From Boletus sp. NGJ (lineage: Eukaryota > Basidiomycota > Agaricomycetes > Boletales > Boletaceae): a stretch of DNA of 64,000 bases. Positions 6,717-55,731 of the stretch are shown one piece after another. The translations under genes and the position numbers were made by a program. A model generated the notes under the pieces. It was not told the origin of the DNA, ran no database searches, and saw only the letters and a program-made list of their open reading frames with translations. Every line of letters starts with the position of its first letter. The stretch's first letter is position 1. The stretch spans positions 124,001 through 188,000 of the forward strand of contig JAGTXK010000026.1 in NCBI GenBank assembly GCA_019096195.1. The letters are read 5' to 3'.

Positions 6717-6759
6717 TCATGCCTTCAGGACACGGTTACCTGTTCCCACCTATCATCAA

Positions 6760-10772: not shown

Positions 10773-11190
10773 CTTCACTGATGGTACACAGTTGTCGGCC
10801 TTCGAGTGGAAGAACAACGTGTTTCGGTTTACTCGCCGTCGCAAAAATATACTTCCTTCTTCTCAATGTGGTCTGTTCGCACACTGCCTCGTGTCTTTGC
10901 TTGTTCTTATTCGGACCCCAGCTACCCATGTAAACAGTGTCTGGGAATGCTTGTCGTGTATATGCTGCGAGACTCTATTCACCACAAGTTTACAATCCGC
11001 GTTTGTCCAACTCACCATCTTCTGCGCAAAGGCAGAAAATATGGCGCTCAGAATTCATGCCACATCCTGTACCTCGTCGAGATGTCCATTGAAGAGTTCA
11101 AGATACTTTGTACACTCATTGCCGTTGTCTTTCGCAAACCCAATTCAATCCCCAGTTCACCGACCCGGACGTACCTCCATCAAACCGTCC
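10773..11190. other. Divergent intergenic region between WD40 copy 1 and the synthetase pseudogene
   Basis: No gene is supported here. The sequence is shared with unit 3 (about 45590-45850), and its last part (about 11160-11200) matches 38983-39010 upstream of the intact synthetase. It probably contains the WD40 promoter. Confidence 0.5.
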
Positions 11191-11196
11191 ATGTGC

Positions 11197-12741
11197 CAGT
11201 GCAGTGATCACGCGATCATGAGTGGCCGGTGCTCGCACTGGTGATGTCGGTATCATCGAAAACGGCAAGATGAGACTGAGTGGGCGTATCAAGGACACTG
11301 TCATTGTGCACGGTGTCTCGTACGGTATTCCAGAACTGGAGACACATCTGCAGACGGTCGAGGGTGTCACTCACTCGTTCCTCGCTGCTGCACCCTATCG
11401 TGCGCCCGGCCAAGAAACCGAGGGTTTCGTCGTTTTCTACTCGCCGACGTTCGATCTCAACGGCGAGGATGCTCCCGGCAAGCTGTTCGCCACGCACCGT
11501 GCTCTCCGCGACGTCTCTGTGAAGATGATCACTCTTCCCCCTCAACTCATCATCCCCATCCCTGGCGATCAAATGGAGAAGACCACCCTTGGAAAGCTCT
11601 CTAGGGCTCGTCTCGTGAACCAATTCAAGCAGGGGGGACTTGCCAAGCACATCGTCCGCGCCGAGGAGTTGTTGAGCATTGCTCGCGGTGCCAGCTTTGT
11701 TACCCCATCCACTACGACTGAGAAGACCTTGGCTCGCATCTACGCCGACATCTTCAACCTCAACGTAGTCGACATGTCTGCTGGCGACAACTTCTTCGAA
11801 CTCGGCGGTACCTCGATTGACGTTATCAGACTCAAGCGCGAGGGAGAGACTGCGTTTGAGTTGCCAGAGATCCCCACTATCCAGATCCTGAAGCACCCCA
11901 TCCTCTCCAGCTTGGCACAATATGTTGACTCTTTGGTTTCCAAGGACGCGAGCACCGAGGAGTACGATCCCATCGTTCCCCTCAACCTCACCGGCAACAA
12001 GACTCCCCATCTTCATGGTTCACCCCGGTGTCGGTGAAGTTCTCATCTTTGTCAACCTCGCCAAGTACTTCCAGAACGAGCGGCCCTTTTACGCATTCCG
12101 TGCGCGGGGTTTCGAACCCGGGCACCCGTTCTTTGGTTCCATGGACGAGATGGTTTCTTCTTACGCAGCAGCTGTGAAGCGGACGCAGCCTCACGGTCCT
12201 CATGCCATTGCCGGTTACTCGTATGGTGGTGTCGTCGCCTTCGAAGTTGCGAAGCGACTCGAAGCCATGGGCGATGAAGTGAAGTTCACCGGTCTTATCA
12301 ACATTCCTCCCAACATTGCGGACCGGATGCACGAGATTGACTGGACGGGGGGTATGCTTAACCTCTCGTACTTCCTTAGTCTCGTGAGCAAGCGCAAGGA
12401 GCAGCTCGACGTCGTCTGGAAGTTGTCTCCTCCCGAGTGTCTCCTTGAGCTAGACATACGACCCGAGTAGCTCAGTTTGTGAGTCGATCGTCTTTTGCTC
12501 TTTTGCCGATCCGTACTGAGATGCATTGATTCCAGCGTCGGTCGATGTGTTCTATGCCAACCCGCTCCGTGGTAGCAAGGAGGACTGGTTGAACAAGCAG
12601 CTGAAGCCTTGGACAGGTTACAGTCGTGGCGAGCCCGCGTACACGGATGTTCCCGGGCAGCACTACACGCTCATGGACTTTGACCACGTTCCTGGTTTCC
12701 AGAAAATCTTCTGCAACCGTCTCGAGGCGCGGGGGCTCTAG
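11197..12741 (+). pseudogene. Truncated atromentin-synthetase-like gene (end of A domain, T and TE domains)
   Basis: From 11237 the sequence is about 99% identical to 41125-42734 of the intact synthetase. It keeps the A8-A10 part of the adenylation domain (SGRIKDTVIVHGVSYG, TTLGKLSR), the carrier motif FFELGGTS and the thioesterase motif GYSYGG. The promoter-proximal and core adenylation sequence is missing: upstream sequence equal to 38983-39018 joins directly to sequence equal to 41125 onward, at a shared CGC. Two further deletions (about 12390 and 12450) and a one-base insertion near 12000 break the frame within the thioesterase part. The last intron and final exon (12530-12741) survive. 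A host pseudogene; the near-identity shows it is recent. Confidence 0.9.
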
Positions 12742-12980
12742 AAATCTGTCTGCAATCCATCGCGAGGGTATTCTAGGGGCTTCTGCTATTCACTATTTGT
12801 TATTGTTGAGCTTAAGTAAGCTGTATACCAAATATGGGGTACAAGCTACATCCGGCCGAGCATACAGTATGGTGGCAAGGGGCACAACACCAGGATATTG
12901 AGGGCATGTCCCCTCATATTGCAGACGAGTAAATAGCTTAGAAAATCAATAGAGTACACTAGTATAAGTATGAAGGCTAC

Positions 12981-13962
12981 TGAAAGGAACTTGCAATGGA
13001 TGAAAGAAAGAGCCTAAACCCAATATCTGAAGCGTTGCCAACCAAGGCAATATGTGACAGAGAGAAAAGCAATTTCAAGACTAGGCAAAACATGGCACTC
13101 TACCGGCTACTTATATACTACTGATAGTGGTGCACGGACCGTGCTATGCTATGACATTGTGGGTACTGGGTATGACATCACAGGAACGAGAAAGTGTTAG
13201 TGTCCAATAGCGAAAGTGAGAATCAATGGAATGAGATGCGTGTGGTATACACATGTAAGTGGAATGTAGTCCATAATGCTCTAGGTGTGGCTATGTGTGA
13301 TATATCAAGAGAACTGATAAATAGTGACAAAAAAGGAAACAGAAGGGGAAATCTAGGTGGAGGGCTTCCGGAGGGTTCCAGGGGTGGTTCTGGTCAGAAT
13401 GCTCGGAATACTCGGAATGCTCAGGAATGGTTCCGGTCAGGAACTCGGGATGGTTGGAGCGTTCGAAGTGTGTACCCTGATAAATAGTTTGGTGATCTAG
13501 CGTTGCTTGATCAGTATATGGGGCAGTGTATGATGGGTGATCTATGGCGTGAGCCAGGGATTGGGGATCAAGCGGAGGAGTTGAGGATCTGGAGGTGAGC
13601 TCCTGATTAGTACTTGCGTAGTGTACCGGGCACTGTGTTAGGTATGGTCTACGGGGTGTGGCAGTTTAGAGGCGTGCAGGCCTATGCTTTGGCGGTGAAT
13701 GCTGGGGTTAGCCGTGAGGCTACTTGGTGTCGTAGGTGTAGCGGGTACGACGAGGGTACTGGTAGTGAAAGCATACATAGGTATGGTCGGTGGTATGGTG
13801 TATCGTATGAGGAAGGGTATGACGAGTGACTACTCTAGGTGTATGCGAGGTGAAGTGAGGGTGGAGTTTGGTGGATAGTAGGCGAGTGTATTGTATGAGG
13901 AAGGGTAGTGTGAGAGATAGGGGGGTGTTAATAGATAATGGGTATCAATGGTGATCGTTTCA
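12981..13962. mobile_element. Solo LTR (982 bp) inside the Copia 5' LTR
   Basis: The insert begins TGAAAGGAAC and ends GATCGTTTCA, giving short inverted ends (TGAAA/TTTCA). It is flanked by the 5-bp direct repeat GCTAC (12976-12980 and 13963-13967). Removing it restores a Copia LTR matching the 3' copy. No coding content is seen; the right half is GT-rich. The family is not represented by a full element in this window. Confidence 0.85.
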
Positions 13963-16480
13963 GCTACCAGAGGGGACTAATAAGAGTTCTGTGCCTTTCG
14001 TTCCCTCACATCCCGCTTGTGCAAACTTCATCCTAATCGTGGGAATCATCATATCCTATTTGTATCTACTGCTACTACTACAGGTTATGAGCCCGCACTC
14101 TAGGCCTATCTGAACCCTTCGCTTATCCCACCATATGTGGCAAGATGTTACAGTTACTGAAGGGGGTACATCTTTTCCCCTTCCTTCACCTTCTGTAGGA
14201 CTATGGGACGACCTACTCTTCAACTCAGACCAGGGATTCCCCTGTGACACTGACTCAGACATCGCCCCATCCGGAACCTCTGTTCTAGGAAGTTACTTGT
14301 AACTCCCTGTTCAGGAAGCTACCCGTTTGGTGTGGACACTGTCCCCCTCATTTCATTTGATATATGCCTTCTTCCTTCTTGATCCGATCATAGACATTGC
14401 CTCCCTGGCTGTGCTCTCTTGCACACAGCCTAGTACTCCTATTTTCCCCATTCAGACTTATGCCTTGATCCTTTTATAGTAATCTCTCGTCTCAGACTTA
14501 CGATTACTATATTCATTACAAAGCCTGCCCTAGACGGGCAAAGCCTATAAATAGGGATGCGGCCCTTCATGTAACTCTAACCTAGATCTACACTCCTTCC
14601 CATGTAATCTACCTGCTTCTCCCGCTAAGGTTCCACTTCACCTCAGAAGCCTTCTCCATGCTCTGGAAGTGATCGCCCTCGTGCTCATGATCATTCTTCT
14701 TGTCACTTCGCACCTGTGTGCCATCATTGCTGTTACCCACTTCTAAAGCTTCGGCAACTCCAACGCCAACAAGAGGTTGGCCCTGTACTGGTCAGGACTC
14801 CGCCACTGACCCAGAAAGCCCTGGACTCTGCCACCGTGGTAAATCCAAGACTCTGCCATTGGTCGTAGAGGTAACAAGAGGACTCTATGTAAAGCTAGCA
14901 GTTGGTCCCCAGTCAGAGGAAACCTTGGGCCTCTGGAGGTATTTTCCCCTCAAGTCCTGCTAGTCCTATAATCCAACAGGGGTTATACGGGAACGTGTCA
15001 CATTGTTACCTGGTGTAACAAAAGATCTAGGTTATAAATTGCCAAAGACTATTCAGTCTAGCAACTCCCACCATTATTCCAAGGAATTAAAACCGCCTAT
15101 CAAGGGATAGGCCCTCGCTCTACGCACTGCGCAGAATCAACCTTTCCCATCTCCTAGGAGAAGATCGAGAAGAAGAAGCCACATCATCACGGGCTTCTAC
15201 TCCTATCTCCGATACGTCTTCATCAAGAAGGATCCCCAGGGTCATCATCCCATTACAATGACCCTCCCACCCGCGCATTTCCAGAACAGTCCAGATGACC
15301 AGATTTTCCAGGTGGTCTCCACTCTCAAACCTCGACCCCATCAGACGCTCCTATCCCACTGCCAGCATTCCAACCAGTTCCCATCAGAGTAGACTCCCCC
15401 AACCCTCTATTCCCAAGTGGAAGATCTAGTCCCGATCCTGATCCAGAAAATCCCTGGCCCAAAGAAGACACAGACGACGAAGACGATATGGTTGAAATCA
15501 AAGCTGCCCTGCCTGAGGAGTTCTCAGGGGAGACAAATGATGTCAAGAGATGGCTCATGGCTATGGAACGGTACTTCCATCTAGGAGGCACAGAGAAGTT
15601 CACTAAGGAAGCCAAGAGGCTCATCCTATTGAACCGGATGTCCAAGGGAAGAGGAAAAGCATTTGCAGAAGCCTGGCTAACCAGGCTACTCGACGACACC
15701 GTGCCACTTGCAGACAAGACCTATAATGAAATCAAGAAAGCCTTTGCCCTCACCTTCACCCCCCATAACACCAGCAACCTAGCAATGGCAGAACTAGGAT
15801 CCCTCCGACAAGATAAACGGGATCCAAAGGGATTTGATAAATTCATTTTCCCAGTTCTCACTGCTAGTGGTTCGCTCGGAACTACAAGAATTCCACTCCA
15901 TCCTAGAATTCTTCCTCCAGGGGATCGACCCAAGCATTGCCCGACAGTTGGTCAACAGTGAGACCTTCCAGAAAGCCAAGAAAATGGAAGAAGTCTATGA
16001 AGTAGCTGCCAACATCCACAGGGGCATGGCAAAGAATTGAAGGAATACAGAAAGGACCCTTTGCGTCCTTTGGAAGAGGCTGAGGAAATCACCATGATCC
16101 GAACACAATGGACGTGGATAGGATCACCTTGTCTCCTATTGAACAGGGCCAAGCAGATGAGAGAGCGAAGATGCTTCATCTGCAACAAGATTGGGTGCAG
16201 TACCAAGAACCACCCAGGATATCGGCCGGTTAGGAGAGAGGAATATAGGAAACCACAAGAAATGCACACTAGGGTGGTCGTCACCCAAGAAACGCCACAG
16301 GATCCCCTCAACAAGTATTTTGCAGAAGTCGCCAGAAACAACAGATGAGACAAAGTTCTCAGAACGCTCCAGACAGCCTTTGACATGGGGCTGGATGAGC
16401 AAGGACTCGTTTTGGAATGAGTACAGGAAGCTGCTGCAATGGAATGGGAAGAGAATGTCAACTCTCTTGCCCTTGCACCC

Positions 16481-19400
16481 TGAAACGACCCTGACAATTT
16501 TCCCTTAAATTACTGTAGTTAGCTAAGACTTAACAATCCCATGTATGCTTACATAGTTACCTTATACCTAGACCTTACGTCTAGACCCTACGTCATACCT
16601 ATGTCAGACTACGTCACAACCCATATACCCATAGAACAGTCTCAACCCCACTACGTCACTGTACATCATATGGAACACTCTAGCACTTCCCATGCCGACC
16701 CTAAACCAAGGACCACAGATAGTATATAAGTAGCGTAGTAACACCTGTATTCGGTAGCTTTGGAATTCCTTTTCTCTCTCTCGGATAGTGCACTTAGCAC
16801 CCCTTGAGATATTAAGGCTCTTTTTCTTTCAAATTCCAAAGCTATTACCTTGTCCCTGGGCTCTTCACCTCTGGACACTTCTAGCCCCTCTCTCCCTACT
16901 CGCTTTTGCCTAGTCGGCACAAACTTTTTGCCTGCTAGTACCACTCCCGTTTCCGACTCAGACCCTCCCTGCATCCATCCTCAGAGAAACTGAGGACCCC
17001 TTGTTAGCGATAAGCATAATTTCAGCCTACTAGATGGTGGCTAGCGCGAGGTCATCCTCTACTGCAGAAGAAGACAAGGAGGTACCAGTCACTGTTTTCA
17101 TTCCTTCCTCCCCTTCCGAGCGCATGGGCTCTTTGCCGCGCTCAACCTTTGCCGGACCTCAGGCTTAGAGGAACCCATTAGTGCTCGTGACACACTTGAG
17201 TAAAGCACTCGTCGAAGCACTTGTCTATATGCTCATCCGGCATTCTAAATAAGGATAATGTTGCTACCGGGCATAGAGCACTAGCCCCGCTTCTTGGGTG
17301 GTTGTTGACCCAAGCGTACATTGGCACTACGATAGTGTGCTTGGATTTGCATGATCACCCATGATGTCATGTAGCTGTGACAAGGGAGTTTATCTTGACT
17401 TCTCCCTGTGCAGCACCTTCCTGTAGTAGGGAAGTTATTCTCTGGTTCCCTCACCTTCTGACTCTCCCACTTCCAGATGGTGTGCGGTCTTTCCCGCTGT
17501 TTTCTTTTTCAAGCTGCCTCCGGAACAAATGTGTTCCTACCAGGTCTTCCACTGTCGTTATGTCTGGGCTCACCCTGAATATAGCCTAGTCGTCCACACC
17601 ACCCTCACCACTTACTCGCCAACACTTACCTGGCGCGTACGAACAATCACCCGTCTTGCCCAGCTCGCTGGACTCCGCAGGGATGACCACAGTCCCAACC
17701 CCATACAGCTGCCCTGCCTCCACCACTCCCGTCACTCCAGGGAGCTTCATGGATCTCACCCAGAGGGCAGCAGCCCAGGGCCTCCCTACCCTCCAACTGG
17801 TCCAACCGGCCCCATACCTCCCAGTGGCCACACACCTGCAACGCGAGGTGGCCCAGTACAATTTGCACCAGTCGGTCCTCCATTACAATATCTGGTGCCA
17901 GCAGTTTGCAGCAGATCCCGAAGCGGCTGGACCGCCGCCCCCCATTGAAGTCCCTTGCACGGACCCCCCCTCTCCGAGCCCCATCCGGGTCAACATTCCC
18001 TCTCCTGCCAGAACACCCTGGGTCTCTCAACCGGGCCCTCCTCCTTCCTGTCCTCTGCCATCCCCGCCGTCGCCCCCATCCCACTCGAGTTCACCTGGGC
18101 AGCCGAGGGCACCAGCTCGTGGATTCCCTCCCACTTCCCCTCAAATTGGGAAGAGCCTGGCCTCCAAGCCAGAACATTATGATGGGAATAAGGAGAAGTT
18201 TGTGCAGTGGTGGCGCACGATGACCATATACTTGAGCAGCTTCGAAACAGAGCCAACTGACTGGCCAAAAATACTAATCATCCTCTCCTACATGTGAGGA
18301 GACAACGCCACCAGAAGGTTCTCAGACCTGCTGGCCGAGGGCAATGCTTACACTCTGGTCAGCTATGAATTCTTCGTAGACAAGCTCAAGAAGACATTCC
18401 AACCTGCCGGCCTCACCAGGCAAGCTGAACAGAAGCTCTTTTCCCTCCAGCAGGGGAAGGACGCTGTTGAGGATTACTTTACTCAGCTATACCAATTGGC
18501 GATGGAGGCCAAATTCGACGTGCAGATCAATGGGTGAACGATCGTCAACCAGATATGCCATCAGGCCCACAACGACCTGGTGGAGTACGTCGAGAGATAC
18601 AAGCCAGATCTCATCAACTTGACCAATGTTCGTGAGTGGGAACAGGCCCTCGTACGGGTGGAGGAAGTGCTTGGCGCCATCGTGGAGCACAAGAAAGCCA
18701 CCTCTGTCTATGTGACCGGCCCTACCTACAACCCACGCTTTGTTCCCTGTCCTCGCTACACCCTGCCAATGACTGCTCCTCCCCCCTTGATGCCTGCAGC
18801 GTGTCCGCATCCTCAGCAAACTGGGACATTCCCTGGACAAGGCGCTCTGATGGAGCTTGACAAGGCATGCGTGGCTGGTCTATGTAGGAAGTGCAGAAAA
18901 CCATGGCCATGCACAGACCACCCCCCCACCCTTGCTCACAGGTGAGAAGTATTACAGTGAATGGACAAGAAGTGTCCTTAAATATGTTTGCGGCCATATG
19001 GGCCATGATGGACTTAGCAGAAGCTCCTCAGGAGGAGCCAGTAGCATATGCATCAGATGTAGTAAACGACTCGGGTTTTCAACCTGTACAGTAGACACCA
19101 GTCGACCTGCTGTACCCCTTAAGTCATTGTCAAAGAATAGATTTGTGATTCTGGACATTGATGAGACTGAAACCGAAAACCGAGTGAACCTCCCTGGCAC
19201 TCCGCTGGTTAAAAACATAACCATCATACTGCAAAAGGTAAAGTTCACGCCATCTGTGAAATGAGATGATGGATCGAATGACACCGACACGATACCCCAC
19301 AAACACCCCAAGGAAGCATGAAAGGAAGAGACATCCTCTCATTCCTGGTTGAACATGTTGGACCCTTGGTCTATATGTTGGATGAAGGCTCAGGTGGAGA

Positions 19401-22400
19401 ATACAGATGTAGAATGAAGCATCCACCACCTCAAGTCCTTCGTTCACGACACCAGAACGATTGAAGTGTCTCGGGACCTCATGCAAGACCTCCGCACACT
19501 TTCCGACGAAGATGCATATTGGGTCCTCCATGACCTACAACACGCCCCAAAATTCCAGAAGGCCTCCCCCCGATCAACAAAGCGAAACTCTCTGGAAATC
19601 CCCATTAAAGTGACCCTCACAAATCATCAGACTGCCAAAGTTAAGGCACTGATCATCTTGGGTTGCACTGGATCGTCCATACACGAGAAGTTTGTGGCTG
19701 AAAAGGGGGTACCCACCCACTCACTACCCCGTCCCCTCACCGTATACAATGCCAACAGCACACCAAACGCCAGAGGCAAAGTAGAAAGGTTCGTGACACT
19801 CGAACTCCAAGTCCATGACCACAAGGAACAATTGGCCCTCGCCATAACAAACCTTGGGCCCAATACAATATTCCTTGGACATGACTGGCTGAAGACACAC
19901 AATCCAGCCATCAATTGGAAAACAGGTAGGATCTCCTTCTGCTGCAAAGGGGATCACATCATGAACAATGTAGATGAGAAGGAGAATGAAATGGACGTAG
20001 ACTACATGCCCTCGCAAGGCGACCACCTATTTGAACTCGATGTAGTAGAATACATGAGGAATCGAAACGTCGCCACAGAGGTAGCCATTAAAGACTATGC
20101 CCAAAAGAAAAAGAAAACCTTTGAGGAAGCCGCCCTGAAGTACATCCATGAGTATAAGGATGTCTTTGACAAAGAAAGTTTCGACACACTGCCCCCAAGA
20201 TGCCCTTGGGATCATGCCATCAAACTCCTCCCAGGAGACCATGAAGTAGACTGCAAGGTCTACCCACTAAACCCTGACGAGCAGAAAGGACTCGATGCCT
20301 TCCTCGAGGAAAGCCTCAAATCTGGAAGAATATGACCTTCCAAATCTCCCTTCACATCGGTGTTCTTCTTCATCAAGAAGAAGGACAGATGCCTCCGCCC
20401 CGTACAAGATTACCACAAGCTAAACGTGGTGACAAAAAGAAACTGATACCCCCTCCCACTCATCAATGAACTGGTCAACAAGCTCAAATCGGCCAAGTAC
20501 TACACTAAGTTTGATGTGAGATGGGGCTACAACAACGTGTGGATGGCTGAAGGAGATGAATGGAAGGCAGCCTTCCGAACGAATCACAGCTTATTCAAGC
20601 CACTCGTGATGTTCTTCAGACTCACCAATTCCCTGGTGATGTTCCAAATGATGATGAATGCACTGTTCAAGAATTTGGTGGACTAAGACATAGTGGTCGT
20701 CTATATAGACAATATCATGATATTCACGAAAACGCTCAAAGAACACCGAAAAATAGTACACGAAGTACTACAAATCCTGAGGGATGCCCACCTCTACCTA
20801 CGCCACGACAAGTGCGACTTCAAAGTCCAAGAGACTGAGTTCCTTGGACTCATCGTCACACAAGACAAGGTAAAGATGGACGGAAAGAAGGTGGAAGCCA
20901 TTAAAAGCTGGCCAGTCCCCACATCGAAGAAAATGCTAAGAGGTTTCCTCGGATTCCTCAACTTCTACCAACAGTTCGTAAAGAACTTCGCCATGATCGT
21001 GCGCCCCCTAAATGCACTCACATCGGTGAAGAAAGACTTCGAGTGGACAACAGCCTGCCAAGAGGCCTTCCAGACCCTCAAAGACACCATCTCTTCTACC
21101 CCAGCGCTCGCCATGCCAACCAACAATGACCCCTACCACATTGAAACTGACAGTTCCAGCATTGGCATTGGCACCATCCTCTCCCAACGACATGACGGTG
21201 TATGGCACCCCGTCGCCTTTATCTCCCATTCCCTCAACAACACTGAGTGGAACTACCACATGGCAGACCTAGAAATGCTAGCCATCATGTTCGCTCTCAA
21301 CGAATGGCGGCAATATCTCCTCAAAGCCACACACCCAATCGAGATCTGGATGGATCACAAGAATCTCGAGTTCTTCTGCCGACCACAAGATCTCATGCGC
21401 TGCCAGGCCCGATGGCAACAAGTACTATAAGAATACCACATAGTAATCAGCCACCAACCTGGCAAAACAAACCCTGCAGATCCTCTGTCCTGGAGGCCAG
21501 ACTTTGAAAAGGGGGTGACATCCGACAACACCATGCAAACACTACTCCCTGATGTGCTTTTTACACCTCCACCATCACCGACCTCCACGACAGTTTCCCT
21601 CAAGGCCGTCACACCAGCAAGCACACTCTCAAGAATCACCAAAATGCAGTATAAACTCGAGCAATTCGCCAAGGACGGCCTGGAAAAGGAAAACTCGCCC
21701 TGGACCCACAAGGAAGGACTCATCCACTGGAAGTTGCTCATATACGTGCCAAACGACGCGAAACTCTGAGAGGACATCCTCGTTGCTAACCATGATCACC
21801 TGATCACTGGCCATCCTGGTATCCAGCGAACGCGTGACTTGATCATGAGCGAGTATTATTGGCCATCCCTACATAGAGACGTGGAGTCATATGTAAAAGG
21901 CTGTGACACATGCCAAAAAGTCAAAGCCAAAACCTCAGCGATCCACACGCCGCTCCACCCGAATGAGATCTCGTCATCCCCATGGGAAATCATCTCCATA
22001 GATCTGATCAGCCCCCTCCCCCAATCTGATGGTAAGAACACTATCTTAGTTGTTGTCGATTGTTTCTCTAAAATGATCCACCTTACGCCCATGATGGACA
22101 CCATTACATCACAAGGAGTCGCAACAGTCTTCCACAACCAAATATTCAAACTCCACGGCGTCCCCCATAAGGTGATCCCAGATAGAGGAACACAATTTGT
22201 GTCGTCGTTTATGCACGACCTCTACTCCCTCCTTGGTATTGAGGCTAACCCATCCACAGCCTACCACCCCCAGACCGATGGCCAGACGGAGTGCGTCAAC
22301 CAAGAGGTAGAGAAGTACCTGCGCAGTTACGTTAATCATCGCCAGACTGACTGGGCAGAATGGCTACCACTAGCCGAATTCGCCCACAACTCCCAAACTA

Positions 22401-23573
22401 CCAGCACCACAGGCGTCTCACCCTTCCTGCTCAACTACAGGCAACAACCACTCATACCCAACAAAAAAGTGGAAGTACAGAACGAGTCTGCCACCTCCTT
22501 TGCCAAAACAATGAAAATGCATCACAACTCGGCAAAGGATGCACTGGAAAAAGTGGCACAGGTGATGAAGAAATTCCACGACAAGCGTGCCTCTCCCACC
22601 GTTGAATACACCGTTGGCCAACAGGTCCTACTCGAAGGAACTCACATCCGGACCAACCAACCAACGAAGAAGTTCGACAATAAGCGACATGGGCCATTCA
22701 GAGTGAAATGAAAGGTAGGCGAGGCCTCCTACAAGCTTGACCTCCCAAAGATGTGGAAGAGAATCCACCCCATCTTCCACAAATCACTCCTCACACTCTA
22801 TCACCCTGGCACATCCCCCTCCCAGACGAAGCCGAAACCGCCACCCCCGGTTATCGTTCAACAGCAAGAAGAGTATGAGGTTGAACACATCGCCGACTCA
22901 TGTAAGCGACATGGTAAAACGGAGTACCTAGTACAGTGGAAAGGATACCCCCATGAAGGACGCACCTGGGAATCGAAGAAGAATGTCTCAAATGCTCCAC
23001 AGGTGATCGAGAAGTTCCACCACGAAAATCCCACCACCATTCGCACCCTTGCAGACAGTGAGTGTGACTGCCCAACATGCGCGTTCCCCGGGACCCCCCT
23101 GTTTAACAAACCATCCTTCTGCTCATACACAGCATCCCTTAACTGCCTCCCCAACCACCTCTTCGAGATTTCCGAGCCCCACAGTGACGTCAAGCTCACC
23201 GGTATCATTGTCGACCAGGAGTTTGACGGCTAAAAAGAGGGTAATGAAACGACCCTGACAATTTTCCCTTAAATTACTGTAGTTAGCTAAGACTTAACAA
23301 TCCCACGAACGCTTATGCAGTTACCTTATACCTAGACCTTACATCTAGACCCTATGTCACAACCCTATACCCATAGAACAGTCTTGACCCCACTACGTCA
23401 CCGTACGTCATACGGAACACTCTGGCACTTTCCATGCTGACCCTAAACCAAGGACTGCAGATAGTATATAAGTAGTGTAGTAACATCTGTATTTGATAGC
23501 TTTGGAATTCCTTTTCTCTCTCTCGGATAGTGCACTTAGCGCCCCTTGAGATATTAAGGCTCTTTTCCTTTCA
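16481..23573 (+). mobile_element. Ty3/Gypsy chromodomain element 2, nested in element 1
   Basis: LTRs are 16481-16831 and 23245-23573, starting TGAAACGACC and ending CTTTCA, flanked by CACCC at 16476-16480 and 23574-23578. A TATATAAG box is near 16723. Gene order is gag (about 17650-18960, with a Cys/His cluster near 18880), protease (19580-19960), reverse transcriptase (20290-20870), RNase H (21050-21440), integrase with an N-terminal zinc-binding region (21790-22500), and chromodomain (22860-23040, with YLVQWKGYP). The chromodomain after integrase places it among chromoviruses. LTR divergence is about 7.6% plus a short deletion, more than the element it sits in. The coding region is broken in several places; a fossil. 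Confidence 0.92.
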
Positions 23574-25245
23574 CACCCGCTATGCAAATCCCCACTTCTC
23601 CCATAGATCAAACATCTTTTTAGGTGGAAGAGATGTACCAACGTCACCCTCTTCCTACATGATTGCTCCTGTATTTATTTCTGGATCAAAGAGTAATTCT
23701 ATTCACATTCCTCTCTTGATCTGGAAGCAGAATGGCAAAATCGTTGGAACAAAAGCCTTAATCGACAGTGGAGCAACAGGATGCTTCATTTCAAGACACG
23801 CAGTGGAGAAGATGGGACTACTCATATGAAAGCTGGACAATCTGATCTGAGCTTGGAATGTCGATGGAACCCAAAACCAGTCTGGAACCATCAAGGAAAG
23901 GACCAACATCATGTTGGATTATGGAGGCATACGAGAACAGTGGGATCTCTATGTCCTCAACTGCGGCAAGGACAAAGTCATCTTAGGACTTCCATGGCTC
24001 AGGGCAGTGAACCCTGACATCAACTGGACAGAAGGACGGGTAACAATAGTGCCATCTTCCTATTGGTGGACTCAAGGTGATCCACCGGAAACACTCGAAC
24101 AGCAATACCTGTTGAGGTATCTGGAACACAACGAAAGGGAGTACGTGCAAGACGGACTCTATGAGACCTTTCGCCACTGGATGCCCTTACAACAGGCCAA
24201 ATTCTTCAATGCACATGGGGATGTACCAGAGTTCATTATCAAGAGGACTACTCTGTCTACCGAGATCGCCCAACTGGCGCAGAAGACAAAGAGCATATTA
24301 CTAAATGCATTCAAAGAATATGAAGACGTCTTCATGGAGAAGACGATCACCAAACTACCTCCCTCAAGACAGTACGACCACGCCATCAAGTTAAAGGACT
24401 CGTTTGTTCCGAAATGAGCCAAGGCATACCCTCTCAACCCACTGGAACAACAAGCATGCTGGGAATTCATTACTGAACACCTCAAGACTGGGAAGATATC
24501 ACCATCAAAATCTTCCCAGGCTGCTCCTTTCTTCTTTGTACAGAAGAAGGATGGGAAACTCCGCCCCTGCCAAGACTACCGGTATCTTAACAGCCACACG
24601 ATCAAGAATGCCTACCCTCTCCCCTTAATTTCTGACCTCCTGGACAAATTAAAGGGATCATCAATTTTCACCAAATTCAACATATGATGGGGCTATAACA
24701 ACGTCTTGATCAAACCAGAAGATCGGTGGAAGGCGGCTTTTCTCACCCTGTTCGGGCTATTCAAGCCTAATGTCATGTTCTTCAGAATATGCAATTCCCC
24801 AGCAACGTTCCAAGCATTCATGGACAATCTCTTCGGAGACTACATAGCAGAGGGATGGTTGGTGATATACATGGACGATCTGTTGATTCATTCTTCAGAT
24901 CAGATAACTCATGATGAGAGGACATGGAAGGTCCTAGAACGCTTCTGACAGCATGAAATGTACCTCAAACTGGAGAAGTGCACCTTCTCAGCCGAAGAAG
25001 TTGAATATCTTGGGATGATTATAGGGAAGGATGGAGTCCAGATGGACCCAGTCAAGCTCAACGCCATCAAGCAATGGAAACCCCTGGTGAATGTGAAGGA
25101 TGTATGGTCCTTCATCAGGTTCTGTAATTTTTACAGGAAGTTCATCCCCTCTTTTTCTGACATCGCATGTCCTTTGCTGGACCTCACAAAGCAAACGATG
25201 ATTTGGTCCTGGGGATCACTTCAAGAAAAATCATTCAGAACCCTA

Positions 25246-25867
25246 TGTTACGACTACCCTGGGTAAAGATAGGCGTTAACTTGGATGGTCGAGTAGCGAT
25301 GAGCTACTGGGGGTCAAAGGAGGTAGCTTAACAAGCTATGAGATGGAGAGTCCCTTGGTGGGTCAAGGGTTCAACGATGAAGGGTCTTCCTCATCATAGG
25401 GTCAAGGGTTCAATAACAGAGGGTCTTCCTCGTCGTAGGGTCAAGGGTTTGACGACAAAGGGTCTTCCTAGTTGTAGTTGAGGGTTCACTCAGGGAGTGA
25501 AGTCGAGATGTAGAAGAAGTGTTCACTCAAAGTAGAACAATGACTTGTAGAGGTCCGGAGGAACGATGATGAAAGTTCACCAAGTAGGTGTAAATTGCAG
25601 GATCAACTACGAGAGTGAGGTTTATATACTAAGTAATCGTGGGAAAAGGATGAGTAAGCCGCAGCACTGGAGAGATCCTATGGAGTGGGAAATGGAAGGG
25701 ACCTTCTGTATGAAGTTAGCGTAGAAGTACAGGTTGTACAAGGGGCGCAAGGATGATCCTTGACTACATGGAGTCCCACTGTGTAGCGAATGGTCCAAGG
25801 GAGTCAGGAGGACAAAGTAAGAACGAGGACAACTAGCAAGAAGGAAGAAAAGGAAAGAATCGTAACA
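25246..25867. mobile_element. Solo LTR (622 bp) inside Gypsy element 1
   Basis: The insert has inverted ends TGTTACGA/TCGTAACA and 5-bp target repeats CCCTA at 25241-25245 and 25868-25872, and splits element 1 between reverse transcriptase and RNase H. It contains three near-copies of a unit of about 55 bp (25340-25470), each with GGGTCAAGGGTT followed by AGGGTCTTCCT. No open frame is convincing. The ends resemble, but the body does not match, the LTR of element 1. Confidence 0.82.
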
Positions 25868-28198
25868 CCCTACAGGCAGCATTCACCAAGAAACCCGTCC
25901 TTGCCTTCCCTGATACTTCAAAACCCTTCACCCTCATGATGGACGCCTCACTCACGGCGTCAGGAGCGGTACTCATGCAGAACAACGATAATGGAGATAT
26001 GCAACCATGTGGCTATCTCTCCAAAACTGTTCTCTCCAGCTGAGAGAAATTACGACATCTATGACAGGGAACTATTGGCTGTCATACGAGGCTTGAAAGA
26101 GTGGCAGCAATACCTCCTTGGATCCCCCCACCCCATAACAGTGTTAACCAGCCATAAGAACTTGACATTCTTCAAGGAACCCTGACAATTGTCCCGACGA
26201 CAAGCAAGATGGCTTTTGTTCCTCCAAGACTATGATATGGTCTACCAAGCTCTACCTGGAACAAAAATGGCCCCTGCTGACACGTTATCTTGTCAGGATG
26301 AAATTGACACTTCCAAGGACAATGAAGATGTGCAACTCCTCCCATCTGATGCATTTGACTGTCAAGTGCGAATGATTGACCTAGCGTTAGCTGAGAAAAT
26401 CAAGGGATCTTCCCAAAGTGATCCCTTGGTACTCTCTGCCATACAAAATGCAGGGCAAGGAGCACCTCTCTTCACCCGGTCCAACATGGAAGACTGGACC
26501 TTTGACGACGGCAAGCTATACTTCAAACACCGGATGTACATCCCAGGCCCAGTCCGATAGGAGTTGGTATCCTCCATTCATTCCTCTTTCGAAGGAGGAC
26601 ATGGTGGACACCTTCGCACCACTCAACTCCTGGCCAAGGACTATTGGTGGCCCGGACTCACCACATTTGTCCACAAGTTCATCGCCGGATGTGCTGTCTG
26701 TCAAAGCAACAAGGTCCAAACACATCCTACGGTTCCCCCTAGTCACCCCCCTAGCTTTTGTGGGCCACCACACTTTCCAACATCTCTCGGTGGATTTGAT
26801 CACCAACCTGCCCCCAGTGGGGGGCTTTGATTCAGTCATGGTCGTGGTTGACCATGGGCTTAGTAAGGGGGTAATTCTTGCCCCTTGCACAAAAACAGTG
26901 GACGCGGCTGGTATAGCCTGTCTTTTCTTTGAAAAAGTCTTCCTACAGTACAGTCTACATGATAAATTGGTTTCAGATCGTGGTCCACAGTTCGCATCCG
27001 CATTCACTTGGGAACTTGCTAGACTCCTGAACTACGACGTCGCCCTTTCCACGGCCTACCACCCACAAACGGATGGCAAAACGGAACAATATAACCAAGA
27101 ACTAGAAACCTACCTATGGATATTCTGCAATGGCCAACCACAGAAGTGGTTGGAATTATTATCCATGGTGGAGTTCACTCACAACTCCACAACTCACTTG
27201 GTCACCGGAAAATCGCCCTTCTCCTTGATCCTTGGATATGAGCCAAGAGTATATCCTTCTATCAGAAAAACCTTCCTACCAGCCCTAGAGGAGAGACTCT
27301 CTTTCCTGAAAGAATCAAGAAAGGAAGCAGAAGCAGCACACAAATTGGCACAACTATGTATGAAGGAGAGAGTCCACTCTCGCTTCAAACTGTGGAAACT
27401 CGGAGACAAGGTATGGCTGGACGCCAAGAACCTGAAATTCCAAGTCCCCTCCTGAAAACTATCCCTGAAATGGACCGGACCATTTGAAATTACTCAAGTG
27501 GTATCCTCTGTGGCATTCCGACTCAAGTTGCTGAAACAGTGGAAGATCCACAATGTGTTCCACGCGTCCCTACTCTCCCCGTATCGGGAGACTATGGAAC
27601 ATGGCCCCAATTTCACTCAACCACCACTGGAACTTGTCAGAACTGAAGAGGAATACGAAGTGGACAGCATCATCAACCATCAGGGAAAACCGGGAAGAAG
27701 GCAGTACCTGACACACTGGAAAGGATATTCCACAGCAGAATGAACTTGGGAACCAGAGGCCAATCTTGAAAATGCCAAGAAAATACTCCAGGAGTATAAA
27801 AGACAACTCAAACTTTGAGACAAGCCCATGCCCCAAGATAACACCTCCCTCTTCATTCTGCTTGCCCACGTATCAGCTGCTCTCACCCAAGCTCGCCTTC
27901 AGAAGCAATATCCGGATCTCAATATCCCCAAACATATCAAACAACATTGGTGCTTCTGCTGGATTGACTACTGCCCCTATCATCATACTTGGTAGATGAC
28001 TCTCGCCCCCCTTTCCATACACCTCAACTGACTCTCCCCCGCTCACCGCCAGAATCTTTATGCCACCATTCTTGATGACCCCGTCACAGTCCGGACCCTC
28101 CAGACTATCCCCTTCTTCTCCTGCAATGACTCACTCATCCAACTCTGTCACCCTCTATAGATCTTACTCCTCACTTTGATCCCTTCTCTCCCAGACCT

Positions 28199-29160
28199 AT
28201 GGGAACTCGGCAGGTCCCTATGACTCCAATGCCCAGCAGACTGCTGAAGAAGAAAGGGCAACAGAAGGTATCCTTGAGATTTGTGAACTTGTTCTCGACC
28301 TCCTTTTCATCGAGGGATTCAACTATTCCCTCGCCCTTCTACCCATCAACACCCATGATCACCTCCTCCACCCCACCACCCTCTCCCTCTCGGAAGAAGA
28401 AAGTCGCGTTTTCTTTGCCCCCTCAACAACCACCATGCCCTCCCACCCCGTTCCCCCTAGACAAATCCCTTCTATGGTGGAGCAATCCATGGAGAACATC
28501 AACGGAATCAGAAGTGTTAACAGAGTTGATAGAGACTCTCCAGAGACATGGAGAGCCCAGTCCTCCAATGACACTGTTGTCACCTCCCCTTCCTCCATGA
28601 ATCCCAACTCCTCCTTCTGAGGAACCTCCCCAATACCAGTCCTCCCAGTTCCTCCCCCAGCCGTTTCCCGACCCACCAGGACCCTCTGCCGATGAGGAGC
28701 CATGGTGTTCTTGGTCGGCTTTCCCTCTCGCCCCAATGACCAAGGTCTTCTCCACACATTGGGGGACTCTACAACAAGGAGCCCTACTCCTTCCTCCGTT
28801 CCCATTCCTGGGGCCGCCGCAGGCGCCTCTCCTACCAGCCATTCCGACTTAGTGGCTAGTCATCCCAATCCCCTGCCTGGCACCAGATTGCCTCATAACC
28901 ATTGAGCTCCCCTCACTGGCATCCGCTGCTACAAATGCGGACATCAAGGTCACCTTTGGCCTGCCTGCCCCCAGTACCGTTGCCCCTACTGTAGGGTGGT
29001 TGCCCCCAACCATCCACAGTATGCTTGCCCACAAAGAACTTGCACATAGTGTGGAGGACGAGGACACGGCTACCAGATGTGTCCCAGCCAGGGAGTCTTT
29101 GACGACTCTTGGGACCTTACCAACTATGAGGAGAACGAGGGAGATCAGAGTTCTTGAGAT
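28199..29160 (+). other. Extra 3' ORF region of Gypsy element 1 (Pro-rich, three zinc knuckles)
   Basis: Downstream of the chromodomain and before the purine tract and 3' LTR there is about 1 kb of coding-like sequence. The first part is Pro/Ser-rich with a basic patch. The last part (about 28920-29100) has CYKCGHQGHLWPAC, then CPYCRVVAPNHPQYAC, then a third Cys/His cluster with GHGYQMC. Zinc knuckles usually sit in gag, and this element already has one in gag. A separate accessory nucleic-acid-binding protein is a reasonable inference. It could also be captured or displaced gag sequence. The reading frame is not continuous; a fossil part. Confidence 0.6.
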
Positions 29161-31072
29161 GGAACTTCAAGACTACGAGGAGGGTAATGTTATGGTTACC
29201 GAAGGGGGTACATCTTTTCCCCTTCCTTCACCTCCTGTAGGACTATGGGACGACCTACTCTTCAACTCAGACCAGGGATTCCCCTGTGACACTGACTCAG
29301 ACATCGCTCCATCCGGAACCTCTGTTCTAGGAAGTTACTTGTAACTCCCTGTTCAGGAAGCTACCCGTTTGGTGTGGACACTGTCCCCCTCATTTCATTT
29401 GATATATGCCTTCTTCCTTCTTGATCCGATCATAGACATTGCCTCCCTGGCTGTGCTCTCTTGCACACAGCCTAGTACTCCTATTTTCCCCATTCAGACT
29501 CATGCCTTGATCCTTTTATAGTAATCTCTCGTCTCAGACTCACGATTACTATATTCATTACAAAGCCTGCCCTAGACGGGCAAAGCCTATAAATAGGGAT
29601 GTGGGCCCTTCATGTAACTCTAACCTAGATCTACACTCCTTCCCATGTAATCTACCTGCTTCTCCCGCTAAGGTTCCACTTCACCTCAGAAGCCTTCTCC
29701 ATGCTCTGGAAGTGATCGCCCTCATGCTTGTGATCATCCTTCTTGTCACTTCACACCTGTGCGCCATCATTGCCATTACCCGCTTCTAAAGCTTCAGCAA
29801 CTCCAATGCCAACAAGAGGTTGGCCTGTACCGGTCAGGACTCCGCCACTGACCCAGCAAGCCCGGGACTCTGCCACTGGTATTTGTATAAGCCCGGGACT
29901 CCGCCACCATGGTAAATCCAAGACTCCACCATTGGTTGTAGAGGTAATGAGAGGACTCTACATAAAGCTAGCAGTTGGTCCCCAGTCAGAGGAAACCTTG
30001 GGCCTCTGGAGGTATTTTCCCCTCAAGTCCTGCTAGTCCTATAATCCAACAGGGGTTATATGGGAACGTGTCACATTGTTACCCGGCGTAACACAAGACA
30101 TGTCGTGCTACCATGCCCAATCAGGTCAGTCCCCGACAATGCCACAGGCTATGCAAGGTCCATTGTTTACATCACAATCACAGCCACCCACTACTAATGC
30201 AGCACCTGCTGCAAGGGCCACCACTCCCAATTTGGAAAACCAATCAAGTATTGGATCGGCTACCTCCACCCCTACACAAAGTACTACAGTAGCTAGTGGG
30301 GGTGATACTGGCAACTTCAACTCATCTTCATCCTTTCCAAAGATAGAGAAGCTTTCCAACGACAATTATAAGTCATGGAAACGCCGGGTAGCGATCATCC
30401 TTCAAAAGAAGGACATGTGGGAAGTTGTGACTGGTGAAGTTCCCACACCCACAGATCCTGCTGTGCTCAAAGATTGGAAGTGCAAGGACATACATGGTCA
30501 GGAAGTCATTATGACTACTATTAAAAATGACCAGATGAACAATCTTACCGATTGTTCCACTTCTGCTGAGATGTGGAAGGTGTTGAGGGATATACATGAA
30601 CCTCAAGGATATGAATCTGTCAGGCAGAGGAGGCATGAGTACTATACTCAGTTAGCCGACAAAGATATGGATCTGCTGACACATCTCAATACATTATGTG
30701 AGTTATGTGAGCTGTTAGCTGATGCCAGACATCTGATCGAGGAGAAAGATTTCAAGTATTTGATGATCTACTCGCTCCCCAACAGCTGGAGCTTGTTCAT
30801 CAGTTGCTATTTAGGTGCTAGGAGCAGCTCTAGGGATAATGAGCGACTCGCGTCCATAATGGTCAACAAGCTCGTCTCCATGATCCACAAGGAAGACTGC
30901 CGCCGTCGCCAAGCGAGCTGATTGGATGATGTCGTCCACACTGCCAAAAAAGCCATGCAAATGCACCATATGCAGACGTGACAACCATGTTACTGCCAAT
31001 TGCTGCTTCAAGGGGAAACCCAAATGTGGCATATGTGACAGGTTCAGTCACAAAGATGCCGAATGCTGGAAG

Positions 31073-32117
31073 TGTTACGCCGGGTAACAATGAGTGACAC
31101 GTTCCCGTATAATCCCCCTGTTGGATTATAGGACTAGCAGGACTTGAGGAAGATTACTTAACCTCCAGAGGCCCAAATACCCTCTGACTGGGGACCAACT
31201 GCTAGCTTTACGTAGAGTCCTCTCGTTACCTCTACGACCGATGGTGGAGTCTCGGATTTACCACGGAATCCCAATCCTTACACAAAGGAGGGGGCAGACC
31301 GGTGCGCAGGCCTAGGAGCAGTAGCCTTCCGTCTGCTGATTCCTAGGGCTTACTGGGCCTAATATCGAATGGCGGAGTCTTCGATGCCGGTGGCGAAGTC
31401 CCGGGCTTGACGAGTGCTGGTGGTCGAGTCCCGGTCTTGCTGGGTTAGTGGCGGAGTCCTGACCAACGACGACCAACCTCTGTTGGTCGTTGGAGTTGCC
31501 GAAGCTTTAGAAGCCTGGTAACGGCAACGACGGCGTCACAAGTGCGAAGTGATGAGGAAGATGATCACGAGCACGAGGGCGAGCACCTCCAGATCGCGGG
31601 AGAAGGCTTCTGAGGTGAAGTGGAACCTTTAGCGGGAGAAGCAGTAGATTACACGGGAAGGAGTGTAGATCTAGGTTAGAGTTACATGAAGGGCCCGCGT
31701 CCCTATTTATAGGCCTTGCCCATCTAGGGCAGGCTTCGTGACGAATATAGTAATGTTTAGTTGCAGACGAAAGATTACTATAAACGGATCAGGCATGAGT
31801 CAAATGGGGAAGGTAGGAGTACTGGGCTATGTGCAGAGAGAGCATAGCCAAGGAGGCAATGTCTATGATCGGATCAAGAAGGAGAAGGCATGTATCAAAT
31901 GAAATAGGAAGGCGGTGTCCATACCAAACGGGTAGGTTCCTAAAGAGGAAGTTACGAATAACTTCCTAGAAAGGTAGTTCCGGATGGGGCGATGCCTGGG
32001 TTGGTGTCGCGGGGAATCCCAGGGAATCCCTGGTCAGAGTCGAAGAATAGGTCGTCCCATAGTCCTACGGGGGGAGAAGGAAGGGGAAAAGATGTACCCC
32101 CTTCGGTAACCGTAACA
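31073..32117 (-). mobile_element. Solo LTR of the Gypsy element 1 family, inverted, inside the Copia element
   Basis: On the minus strand this is a 1045 bp copy of the same LTR found at 14146-15020, with matching TGTTAC start, AAGGGGGTACATC region, TATA-like box and GTAACA end. Target repeats GGAAG flank it (31068-31072 and 32118-32122). It interrupts the Copia gag-pol just after the zinc knuckle. It is more diverged from the element 1 LTRs than they are from one another, so it comes from a separate event. Confidence 0.88.
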
Positions 32118-35100
32118 GGAAGAACCCTGCCAATAAGGGCAAGGACAAGACAAGTAGTGGGTGGGATAGAAAGAAGTCCACCCAAAAGGGGAAAGAGCAT
32201 GCTAAAATCGTCAATAAGGATGATAGCAATGATAGTGATAGTAAACTTGGCAAGAGTTTTAATGCTCATGTAACTATAGATAGCAATGCGAGCAAGGCTG
32301 ATGAGGCTGAATTTTCTGCTTATTCATGGATTGTGAATTCTGATGCTATGACACACATATGCACCCAACAAAAAGCATTTGTTGACTATCAGACATTAAC
32401 AGCTAAGACAGTTACTGGATTGGGTAGCAAGCCAGTTACCATATATGGTAAAGGCACCATCATTCTCATTACACGAATTGAAGAACAACTCGTTCGAACT
32501 CGATTAAATAATGTGCTACATGTACCTGATGCACAGGAGAACCTACTGTCACTTGGACAAATCAATGCCAAGGGCGGACGATCAGTGTGTGCACGAGGAA
32601 CATTAGAGATCTATGATGACAAGGAACAACTAATTATAGTTGGCCACCTAAAAAGAAAGCTATACTATTTCAATATAGTAAGCAACATACATGATGTCAC
32701 ACATGTGGCAATAAAGATTAAGAACGCGTATACCTGGTCTGAATGGCATCATTGTCTCGGACACATAGGTATTAGTGGATTGAGAAAACTACATAGTAAA
32801 CATCTAGTCAATGGACTATCTATCAGTGAGAGTTCACAAGACTTCGATTGTACTGTGTGCATCCAATCCAAGATCACATGACAGCCGATACCCAAAATGG
32901 GAAGCTGGCGGCAATCCTTATTGGGTGAATTAATTCACACAGATGTGTGGGGACTGGCACAGGTCCCATCACTCAAGAGATATAGGTACTATATATCGTT
33001 TATTGACGATACAACACAATATGTTACGATCTCGTTCATGACGACTAAGGATGAGACTGCTAGCAAGGTAAAACAATATCTAAATTATTTTGAACGACAT
33101 AAGCAGGTACTACCAAAGGCAATACATGCCGATAATGGACGTGAATACATCAACTGTGACCTAATCATGTGGTGTCTCAATAAGGGAATCGAGGTACAAA
33201 CGACCGCACCTTACACGCCGGAGCAAAACAGCATTGCAGAATGATGGAATAGAACCATCGTAGAGTTAGGACATGCCATGATCTCAGGCCAAAATATGCC
33301 ACAGGAGCTCTGGCCCAAAGCAATGAGACATGCAACATATATTAGGAATCGTGTGTTTACCTGATCAGTACCTGATATGACACCCAACCAAAAATGGCAT
33401 GGTAGCTGACCAGATATTTCCCACATTCAGGAATTTGGTTGGAAGGTGTGGATTCTTGATGAATCACTCAACTTATCGAAGTTGGCACCCCATGCCAAAG
33501 AATATAATTTTGTGGGCCATGAGGACGGCCCAAAGGGCATCAAATATTATGATGCAGAACATCGCACACTAAAGGTCACACGGAATTATATATTCCTGAT
33601 GACAAATCTTCCCATGCCAGGAACAGACCCATGGTCCAAGGGGGAGGATACCAAGTGCAAATGTGTAGATAACGAAGCATTACAGAATGCTAATAAGAAA
33701 CAGAAATTAGACGACTCTGAAATATCAGAATCATTGTCAGAGAGTCCAGATGATCACACAAACGAGTCTAGGATTACTATGGCAGAAACTATCTACATGA
33801 TGTTTAGTGAAACATGGCACTCAGGAATAAAGACCTGAAGAATCTAGCCAAAGCCAAATGATCATCTGAATGGCCAAAATGGGAAAAGGCCATCGAGATA
33901 GAGTTGGAAACATTACATAAGATGGGTACCTGGGAATTAACCGAGGCATCCGAAAATAGAAAACCCATATCCAACAAATGGGTATTTGTCAGAAAATATG
34001 ACAAATATGGTAATCTACAGAAATACAAGGCACGACTCGTTGCCAGAGGATATAGCCAAATCCCAGGCATGGATTATAACGAGATGTTCTCACCAGTTGT
34101 GCATCTAGAAACTATAAGATCTATTCTAGCACTAGCAGTAACAGAGGACTGGGAAATACAACAAATGGACATCAAAGGAGCATACCTAAACAGATGTCTA
34201 AAAGAGGAAATATACATGAGTCAGCCCGACGGTTACCATGATGGCACATCATGGCTATGCCGACTAATAAAAACCATATATGGACTAAAGCAGTCCGGTC
34301 GAGAATGGAATGAAGAGTTTGATACAAAAATGAAAACCATATGATTCAGATGATTGTACTCTGATCCATGCGTCTACATAAGACAAGAAGGAGACATGGT
34401 CGAAATCATCACAGTATGGGTCAACAGCCTACTACTATTTATAAATGATAAAAATCATATGAGTAATCTCAAAAGGGAACTAAATGAACTATTTGAGATC
34501 ACCAATCTAGGTGAGCTGAATAAACTCGTCAGACTCGAAATCACACGAGATCGAGTGAAGGGGATGATCTACATAAAACAGACAAAGTACATCGAAGAAC
34601 TACTTGAGAAGTACAATATGCAGGACATTAACCCAGTATCTACACTGCTTGATCCAAATGTGAAGTTGCAACCACAAGTGGAAACAAATGATGCGCCTAT
34701 CCAAAATGGGAATTACGCGTCGCTAACTGGGTCTTTGATGTATGCCGCAATCGGTACTCGTCCCGATATAGCATATGCAGTAAATAAGCTGTGCTCATTC
34801 AATAGCAATCTGGATATGGAACATTGGACTGCAGCAAAGAGAGTACTATGGTACCTACAAGGAACCAAAGATCTGAGTCTTACATATGCGCGAAAACACA
34901 GAAATCAATGGGTTTCATGGTTATGCAGACGCGAGCTTTGCCAGTAACCCTGACCTTAGTTCCACAAACGGCAACGTCTTCATCCTGAGTGGAGGTGCCA
35001 TCACGTGGCATTCCAAAAAGGGAAACGTGCCAACCTTATCGACTGCCAAAGCTCGAATTCACATGAATGGCTGATGCAGGACAAGAGGTGATATGGCTAC

Positions 35101-42734: not shown

Positions 42735-42741
42735 AAATCTG

Positions 42742-47248: not shown

Positions 47249-47395
47249 AAACAGCGGTCGATTACCTCGAGCGTGGCCTTGTCTACCTCAAACAAACTGT
47301 GACTGTTTTGCTTGTTGTTTTCCGACCACTCAGAAGCGCTTGCACGTTACAATTCCAGAGAAAATGTATGATATTACAAAAATAACCTCAACCTA

Positions 47396-51590: not shown

Positions 51591-51600
51591 CACCCTCCCA

Positions 51601-51653
51601 GGGGTACCTCATAGGTCCATCTCTCCCACTAGAGGGTTGGACCTATGAGGTGC
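51601..51653. repeat. Perfect-stem hairpin (about 17 bp arms)
   Basis: GGTACCTCATAGGTCCA is followed after an 18-base loop by its reverse complement with one mismatch. The loop contains CCCACTAGAGGG, itself nearly self-complementary. No gene spans it. It could be a transposon-end inverted repeat or a folded transcript element. Confidence 0.75.
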
Positions 51654-55730: not shown

Positions 55731-55731
55731 A

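Follow-up and report, generated by a model that had tools for sequence, protein, structure and literature searches.

Gene conversion between outer long terminal repeats and saturated CpG decay probably explain an apparent age reversal in a retrotransposon nest of Boletus sp. NGJ

The window analysed here, a stretch of 64,000 nucleotides of Boletus sp. NGJ (contig JAGTXK010000026.1, positions 124,001 to 188,000; C41:124001-188000 in our contig numbering), carries three long terminal repeat (LTR) retrotransposons nested at 12804-35678, a Copia-type element enclosing Gypsy 1 and Gypsy 1 enclosing Gypsy 2. The LTRs of Gypsy 2 are more diverged than those of Gypsy 1 around it, and both elements are bounded by target site duplications (TSDs), making them an age-inverted nested pair. 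We consider it probable that the nest is an ordinary one built in place, and that gene conversion in the outer LTRs together with CpG saturation explains the apparent reversal of age. An earlier note on this DNA had placed Gypsy 2 inside Gypsy 1, with coordinates that proved correct to the base; its nest was one level short, as Copia encloses Gypsy 1. The TSDs of Copia, Gypsy 1, Gypsy 2 and a 622-bp insert are exact, indicating that each integrated where it is now found. The features on which the argument depends are listed by window position.

12804-35678, + strand: Copia-type LTR retrotransposon, outermost, enclosing Gypsy 1; TSD GTTAT at 12799-12803 and 35679-35683, found by self-alignment
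12804-14082, + strand: Copia 5' LTR, interrupted by a 982-bp insert
35387-35678, + strand: Copia 3' LTR
14146-30093, + strand: Gypsy 1; TSD CAAGA on both sides
14146-15020, + strand: Gypsy 1 5' LTR, 875 bp; TSD CAAGA at 14141-14145
29188-30093, + strand: Gypsy 1 3' LTR, 906 bp; TSD CAAGA at 30094-30098
14159-14679, + strand: homogenised tract of Gypsy 1, LTR positions 14-534; partner in the 3' LTR at about 29201-29722
14680-15020, + strand: unhomogenised part of the Gypsy 1 LTR; partner in the 3' LTR at about 29723-30093
16481-23573, + strand: Gypsy 2, a Tf1/sushi-like chromovirus inside Gypsy 1; TSD CACCC at 16476-16480 and 23574-23578
16481-16831, + strand: Gypsy 2 5' LTR, 351 bp
23245-23573, + strand: Gypsy 2 3' LTR, 329 bp
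25246-25867, + strand: solo-LTR-like insert of 622 bp within Gypsy 1, belonging to another family; TSD CCCTA

Between the Gypsy 1 LTRs 33 of 874 sites differ (3.8%), and between the Gypsy 2 LTRs 24 of 329 (7.3%) after an affine realignment in which the 22 missing bases form a 21-bp and a 1-bp gap, or 27 of 329 in the cruder MAFFT alignment. Tested against chance under a simple site model, the inversion gave Fisher p = 0.014 with 24 differences and p = 0.0027 with 27. The inversion reported in the earlier note, with counts of 37/875 and 25/329, is thus real as a count. The Copia LTR pieces, at 11/292, also fall below Gypsy 2. The raw inversion depends largely on CpG-type changes and on a mosaic outer LTR; for transversions alone, the two pairs are alike (2/874 in Gypsy 1 vs 1/329 in Gypsy 2, p = 1).

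The differences between the Gypsy 1 LTRs are unevenly placed, with 3 in LTR positions 1-13, 5/521 in 14-534 and 25/340 (7.4%) in 535-874. The tract 14-534 was chosen after the data had been seen, and the Fisher p of 9e-7 for 5/521 vs 25/340 is to be read accordingly; a best-segment scan with CpG-stratified permutation, applied to 11 pairs, gave p = 0.0066 for Gypsy 1 (300 permutations). The outer LTR pair thus contains a contiguous tract of excess identity, as expected of conversion. Outside the tract, the outer pair equals the inner one both in all differences (25/340 vs 24/329, p = 1) and in discordant CpG (16/25 vs 13/22, p = 0.77). The same scan found a quiet core in the pairs L002 (201-520, p = 0.0066) and L009 (201-580, p = 0.01) and none in the other eight. 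A simple cold promoter core, at which L002 and L009 hint, was provisionally set aside for Gypsy 1, where decay per copy in the tract matches that in the rest.

This decay was measured at ancestral CpG sites marked by 28 other LTR rows, the reference for this and for the run test below omitting eight near-duplicate rows (L015, L016, L018 and L019). CpG decay per copy in Gypsy 1 was 0.67 in positions 14-200, 0.68 in 201-534 and 0.70 in 535-875, yet the two LTRs agreed in their decay at 19 sites of 14-534 and were discordant at 1, as against 7 and 16 in 535-875 (p = 2e-5). No significant contrast of this kind appeared in the control pairs L001 (13/14 vs 12/14, p = 1), L005 (5/3 vs 11/9, p = 1), L002 (20/6 vs 12/8, p = 0.33) and L009 (16/1 vs 20/8, p = 0.12); L013-L020, a tandem, truncated, contig-end or unequal-LTR group, were not among the controls, while L005, also tandem, was used. 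The tract has thus decayed as much as the rest, but its decay is common to both LTRs, so that it appears neither young nor spared. A late copying event from one LTR to its partner would be the simplest cause of such sharing. The longest run of concordant CpG sites in Gypsy 1 spans 22 of 56 sites (permutation p = 0.0001), and among the 16 LTR pairs run-tested only Gypsy 1 and L009 (29/52 sites, p = 0.002), both of the long-LTR family, fell below 0.01. The Gypsy 2 pair showed no excess of concordant runs (p = 0.23). From the Gypsy 2 family, the run test left out L040/L039 and L045/L046, which lack a matching TSD, and L047/L050, whose ends are 59 kb apart and oppositely oriented, and it kept L034/L033, whose TSD matches at 4 of 5 bases; L057 and L058 were omitted from tree and alignments, and L059 was used in the tree only.

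Most differences in both Gypsy pairs are of CpG type (27/33 in Gypsy 1, 17/24 in Gypsy 2), and in Gypsy 1 six dinucleotides are TG in one of the LTRs but CA in its partner, which marks two independent decays of a CpG. The blocks of the window that hold the nest are poor in CpG, with 103-151 per 4 kb in the six blocks of 12001-36000, as compared with 255-294 in the six blocks of 1-12000 and 36001-48000 and 194 in 48001-52000. The expected CpG discordance between two LTRs is flat, 0.56-0.67, for per-copy decay of 0.4-0.8, with a maximum of about 0.66 at a decay of 0.6-0.7, and CpG differences at this flat maximum are unable to order these elements. The CpG part of the divergence is thus saturated in both the Gypsy 1 and the Gypsy 2 pair. 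Unequal mutation by methylation, offered in the earlier note as one alternative, therefore matters, in that CpG-type changes prevail among the differences and the CpG clock has run to saturation. The favoured cause is that note's other alternative, gene conversion of the outer LTRs, to which the mosaic divergence, the contrast in shared decay and the concordant run all point.

Considering these results, the following course of events is proposed. Copia, Gypsy 1 and Gypsy 2, together with the solo LTR, would have inserted in place, in that order from the outside in, and fast CpG decay in the LTRs would have followed. Later, gene conversion may have copied about 520 bp, or 60% of an LTR, between the two Gypsy 1 LTRs, erasing the CpG differences there and bringing the outer divergence down to 3.8% from some 7.4%, whereas the LTRs of Gypsy 2, short and with no sign of conversion, would have retained their 7.3%. 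We infer that the homogenisation was gene conversion and that it came after most of the decay.

Several observations weigh against this explanation. With CpG sites excluded, divergence still tilts toward the inversion, at 6/808 in Gypsy 1 vs 7/295 in Gypsy 2 (p = 0.051; Copia, 3/266), as it does when Copia and Gypsy 1 are pooled (9/1074 vs 7/295, p = 0.058), and the non-CpG comparison of Gypsy 1 with Gypsy 2 outside the tract gave p = 0.10. The Copia LTRs, necessarily the oldest, differ at 11/292 sites only, and their CpG decay per copy, 0.39, lies below that of both Gypsy pairs, so that decay load is no clean clock either. A stricter reference gives Gypsy 1 decay loads of 0.60 (14-200), 0.68 (201-534) and 0.67 (535-875), and the family controls are mixed, in that L009 has a long concordant run (p = 0.002) and L002 has none (p = 0.50), though both are quiet-cored. 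Not all classes of difference are reduced in the tract: CpG-type differences number 1 inside vs 23 outside, but non-CpG differences 4/498 inside vs 2/300 outside, although a recent conversion should have erased these too. All four non-CpG differences in the tract are private to one Gypsy 1 LTR, their derived state occurring in 0 of 36 other rows; they would thus have arisen after the conversion, from which time no clear CpG change is seen. The single discordant CpG of the tract, at LTR position 415, adjoins a 1-bp gap. The four private changes might, purely as a conjecture, stem from mutagenic repair synthesis or from errors in the sequence.

Without any conversion, CpG saturation, small numbers and the differing make-up of the LTRs could give an inversion between pairs of about equal age, an account to which we assign a low but appreciable probability. 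The lack of a significant contrast in CpG dinucleotides that differ (21/33 in Gypsy 1 vs 14/17 in Gypsy 2, p = 0.21), the equality in transversions, the borderline non-CpG contrast and the flat expectation for CpG discordance all agree with it. Five other pairs of the Gypsy 2 family show CpG discordance of 50-58% and non-CpG divergence of 0.95-4.1%, a range in which the 2.4% of Gypsy 2 is usual for the family. However, this account leaves unexplained the contrast between shared decay in 14-534 and mostly unshared decay after it. Another way to dispense with conversion is to suppose that the tract inherited shared decay from a decayed parent and was then spared CpG decay, while 535-875 was not spared. 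The similar non-CpG differences in the two segments and the quiet cores of L009 and L002 are in keeping with this, but it requires two independent region-specific causes with one boundary, and the discordance of L001 is ordinary throughout; we regard it as highly improbable.

The earlier note had proposed that Gypsy 2 entered Gypsy 1 elsewhere and that the whole was later reverse transcribed as a unit, with only the outer LTRs reset. The raw order of Copia, Gypsy 1 and Gypsy 2 divergence would suit a composite landing in Copia, and the non-CpG differences tilt the same way (p = 0.058). Such a composite should have left further copies, and the search for other Gypsy 1 copies with Gypsy 2 at the same site, which the note had suggested, found none in the 32.8-Mb assembly of 141 contigs, the one assembly for which this absence holds. 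Patterns for the left and the right junction, with up to 3 mismatches, each had one match there, the window, and the full-length match to 240-bp junction queries was the window's own row only (left, 40 of 210 candidates scored; right, 40 of 241). One right-junction match that overran into the flank, C43:66857-66993, belongs to a separate copy of the Gypsy 2 family, which has the TSD CAAAG. The Gypsy 2 site is empty in all 20 fetched Gypsy 1 copies, 19 with the exact 5-bp single-target overlap and L020 with 3 bp; among 35 Gypsy 1 left-half matches outside the window in the left-junction search, 26 are joined to a contiguous right half in the scored rows, and 5 more are empty in the fetched loci. 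Nor were the outer LTRs reset over their whole length, as about 40% of it, positions 535-874, is as diverged as Gypsy 2. The share of decay already present when Gypsy 1 inserted is estimated at 0.20 (0.00-0.44), or 0.29 (0.08-0.47) with a wider reference; these likelihood intervals are too wide to weigh pre-insertion decay as sole cause, and the same estimate for other pairs was 0.36 in L002 and 0.11 in L001. The note had also set against its own proposal the absence of a second composite combined with equal CpG-excluded divergences; no second composite was found in this assembly, and the divergences are unequal yet not clearly different. Unit copying of a composite thus appears very unlikely. 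As possible controls, other nests of Gypsy 2 in Gypsy 1 were sought by setting the flanks of 15 insertions of the Gypsy 2 family (12 pairs and 3 solo LTRs) against the window and against the 20 Gypsy 1 loci that had been fetched. Three matched on both flanks, too few to serve: L027/L028 in locus L006, and L047/L050 and the solo L054, both with their matches in the window, at around 55 and 59.8 kb. Gypsy 2-like LTRs also lie inside the fetched Gypsy 1 loci L004, L007, L011 and L012.

Gene conversion, the preferred explanation, has been invoked for similar nests. Nested elements with LTRs more diverged than those of their hosts made up 1042 of 4126 (25%) across 15 plant species, for which gene conversion was proposed; converted regions were predicted in 25% of LTR pairs, with tracts mostly of 100-1000 bp whose length was greater inside single elements than between different ones (Jedlicka et al. 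2020, PMC7251063). The present nest resembles these cases in its negative 'delta LTR similarity', the inner pair being more diverged than the outer. It differs in that their survey covers plants only, its main text containing none of the strings 'CpG', 'methylat' and 'fung', whereas here, in a fungus, a test of shared decay localises one tract. The nest thus adds an example of a known inversion, one in which the converted tract is argued for from CpG decay.

The class of the two Gypsy elements is indicated by their domains and their putative primer-binding stretches.

15023-15034, + strand: Gypsy 1 primer-binding stretch, 12 nt complementary to the LTR at window positions 14578-14589, about 32 nt past the TATA-box start
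16832-16844, + strand: Gypsy 2 primer-binding stretch, 13-nt exact complement of the LTR at window positions 16755-16767, about 32 nt past the TATA-box start

Gypsy 2 has RVT_1, RNase H, H2C2, rve and Chromo matches above cut-offs and an SH3_Tf2-1 match below cut-off (27.8 vs 30 bits). The chromodomain (PF00385, E = 6e-16) lies in the open reading frame (ORF) after the integrase ORF, as in chromoviruses, and the 13-nt complement would allow self-priming, the RNA start and the priming being predicted. Both elements appear to have a self-priming layout, and we take Gypsy 2 to be a putatively self-priming, Tf1/sushi-like chromovirus. The likeness consists of the chromodomain, the weak Tf2-1-like SH3 match and a primer-binding stretch that could pair with the presumed 5' end of the RNA, and Gypsy 1 has the same layout with 12 nt. 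The complement of Tf1 is 11 nt, whereas those found here are 12-13 nt, and the scanned Gypsy 1 ORFs, unlike those expected of this class, give only a weak integrase match. In the Gypsy 2-family tree, 13 of 14 LTR pairs from outside the window join as pairs (L044/L043 weakly supported), as does the window pair; the exception, L045/L046, has no matching TSD. The LTRs L047 (C114:557365-557912) and L050 (C114:616280-616827) belong to one Gypsy 2-family element, with TSD GAACA, and are paired in the tree. They are separated by 59 kb and oppositely oriented, an arrangement suggestive of an inversion that broke within the element.

Five young, near-identical copies of the Gypsy 1 family have a 5' LTR from a type A clade and a 3' LTR from a type B clade, about 8% apart (77-86 differences in a three-copy matrix). 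Three have distinct TSDs, GAGCG on C89, CTGTG on C22 and CTAGC on C74, and those on C21 and C81 lie at contig ends.

C89:140201-148677: unequal-LTR copy L014
C22:1708785-1717261: unequal-LTR copy L018
C74:78750-87220: unequal-LTR copy L016
L019 and L015: unequal-LTR copies cut by contig ends

Some variants are linked across 5' LTR, interior and 3' LTR in these copies. The C89 and C22 copies differ at four sites, all of them no more than 14 bp from the 5' end or 57 bp from the 3' end, so that the interior resembles a collapsed consensus, and we lean towards an assembly artefact. It is doubtful that a young subfamily of Gypsy 1 moves with unequal LTRs, type A at the 5' end and type B at the 3' end, which are inherited together over several insertions. 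If it did, new copies would not be born with identical LTRs and LTR dating would fail for the family; canonical LTR regeneration would be insufficient, and intermolecular plus-strand transfer in each round, or movement as DNA, would be needed. A literature search limited to word co-occurrence in one collection of papers found no work pairing LTR retrotransposons with intermolecular plus-strand transfer or with non-identical LTRs. As the Gypsy 1 of the window is several per cent from its nearest relatives, the caution about artefacts should hardly touch it. Between L017 (C71:29830-39749) and L014, divergence falls from about 3% in the 5' LTR to 1% and then to 0 at element positions 3500-8000, and 800 bp of the 3' interior of L017 is identical in 8 places and one base off in a ninth.

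The remaining features of the nest are two further insertions.

12981-13962, strand unassigned: 982-bp insert within the Copia 5' LTR; ends TGAAA...TTTCA, TSD GCTAC, solo-LTR-like by its junction sequences
31073-32117, - strand: Gypsy 1-family solo LTR inside Copia; 96% to a type A LTR, TSD GGAAG

Of the 20 Gypsy 1 copies fetched, 18 have an alignment that covers the site of the 622-bp insert, and all 18 lack it. Copia, with copia-type gag and RVT_2 matches in the ORFs 30037-30921, 33862-34344 and 34354-34947, lies between copies of a WD40 gene array, and its empty site is present in a paralogous spacer at 42792. Repeats 70-88% alike at 8341-10938, 36034-38523, 43131-45709 and 58265-64000 are apparently this array around the nest, the Pfam assignment coming from one ORF (37312-38307). 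CpG falls to 20-60 per 4 kb at 52001-64000, part of which matches array copies elsewhere at 255-294 per 4 kb, as if the array copies there had been heavily CpG-mutated. A solo LTR distantly related to those of Gypsy 1, with TSD ACTGT, lies at 53789-54704.

One locus thus shows LTR dating reversing a known order of insertion. The comparison of shared with unshared CpG decay between the LTRs of an element is a simple check that may help to tell late gene conversion apart from youth. Accounts of unusual mobility drawn from LTR divergence are unsafe where CpG decay in a genome is heavy.

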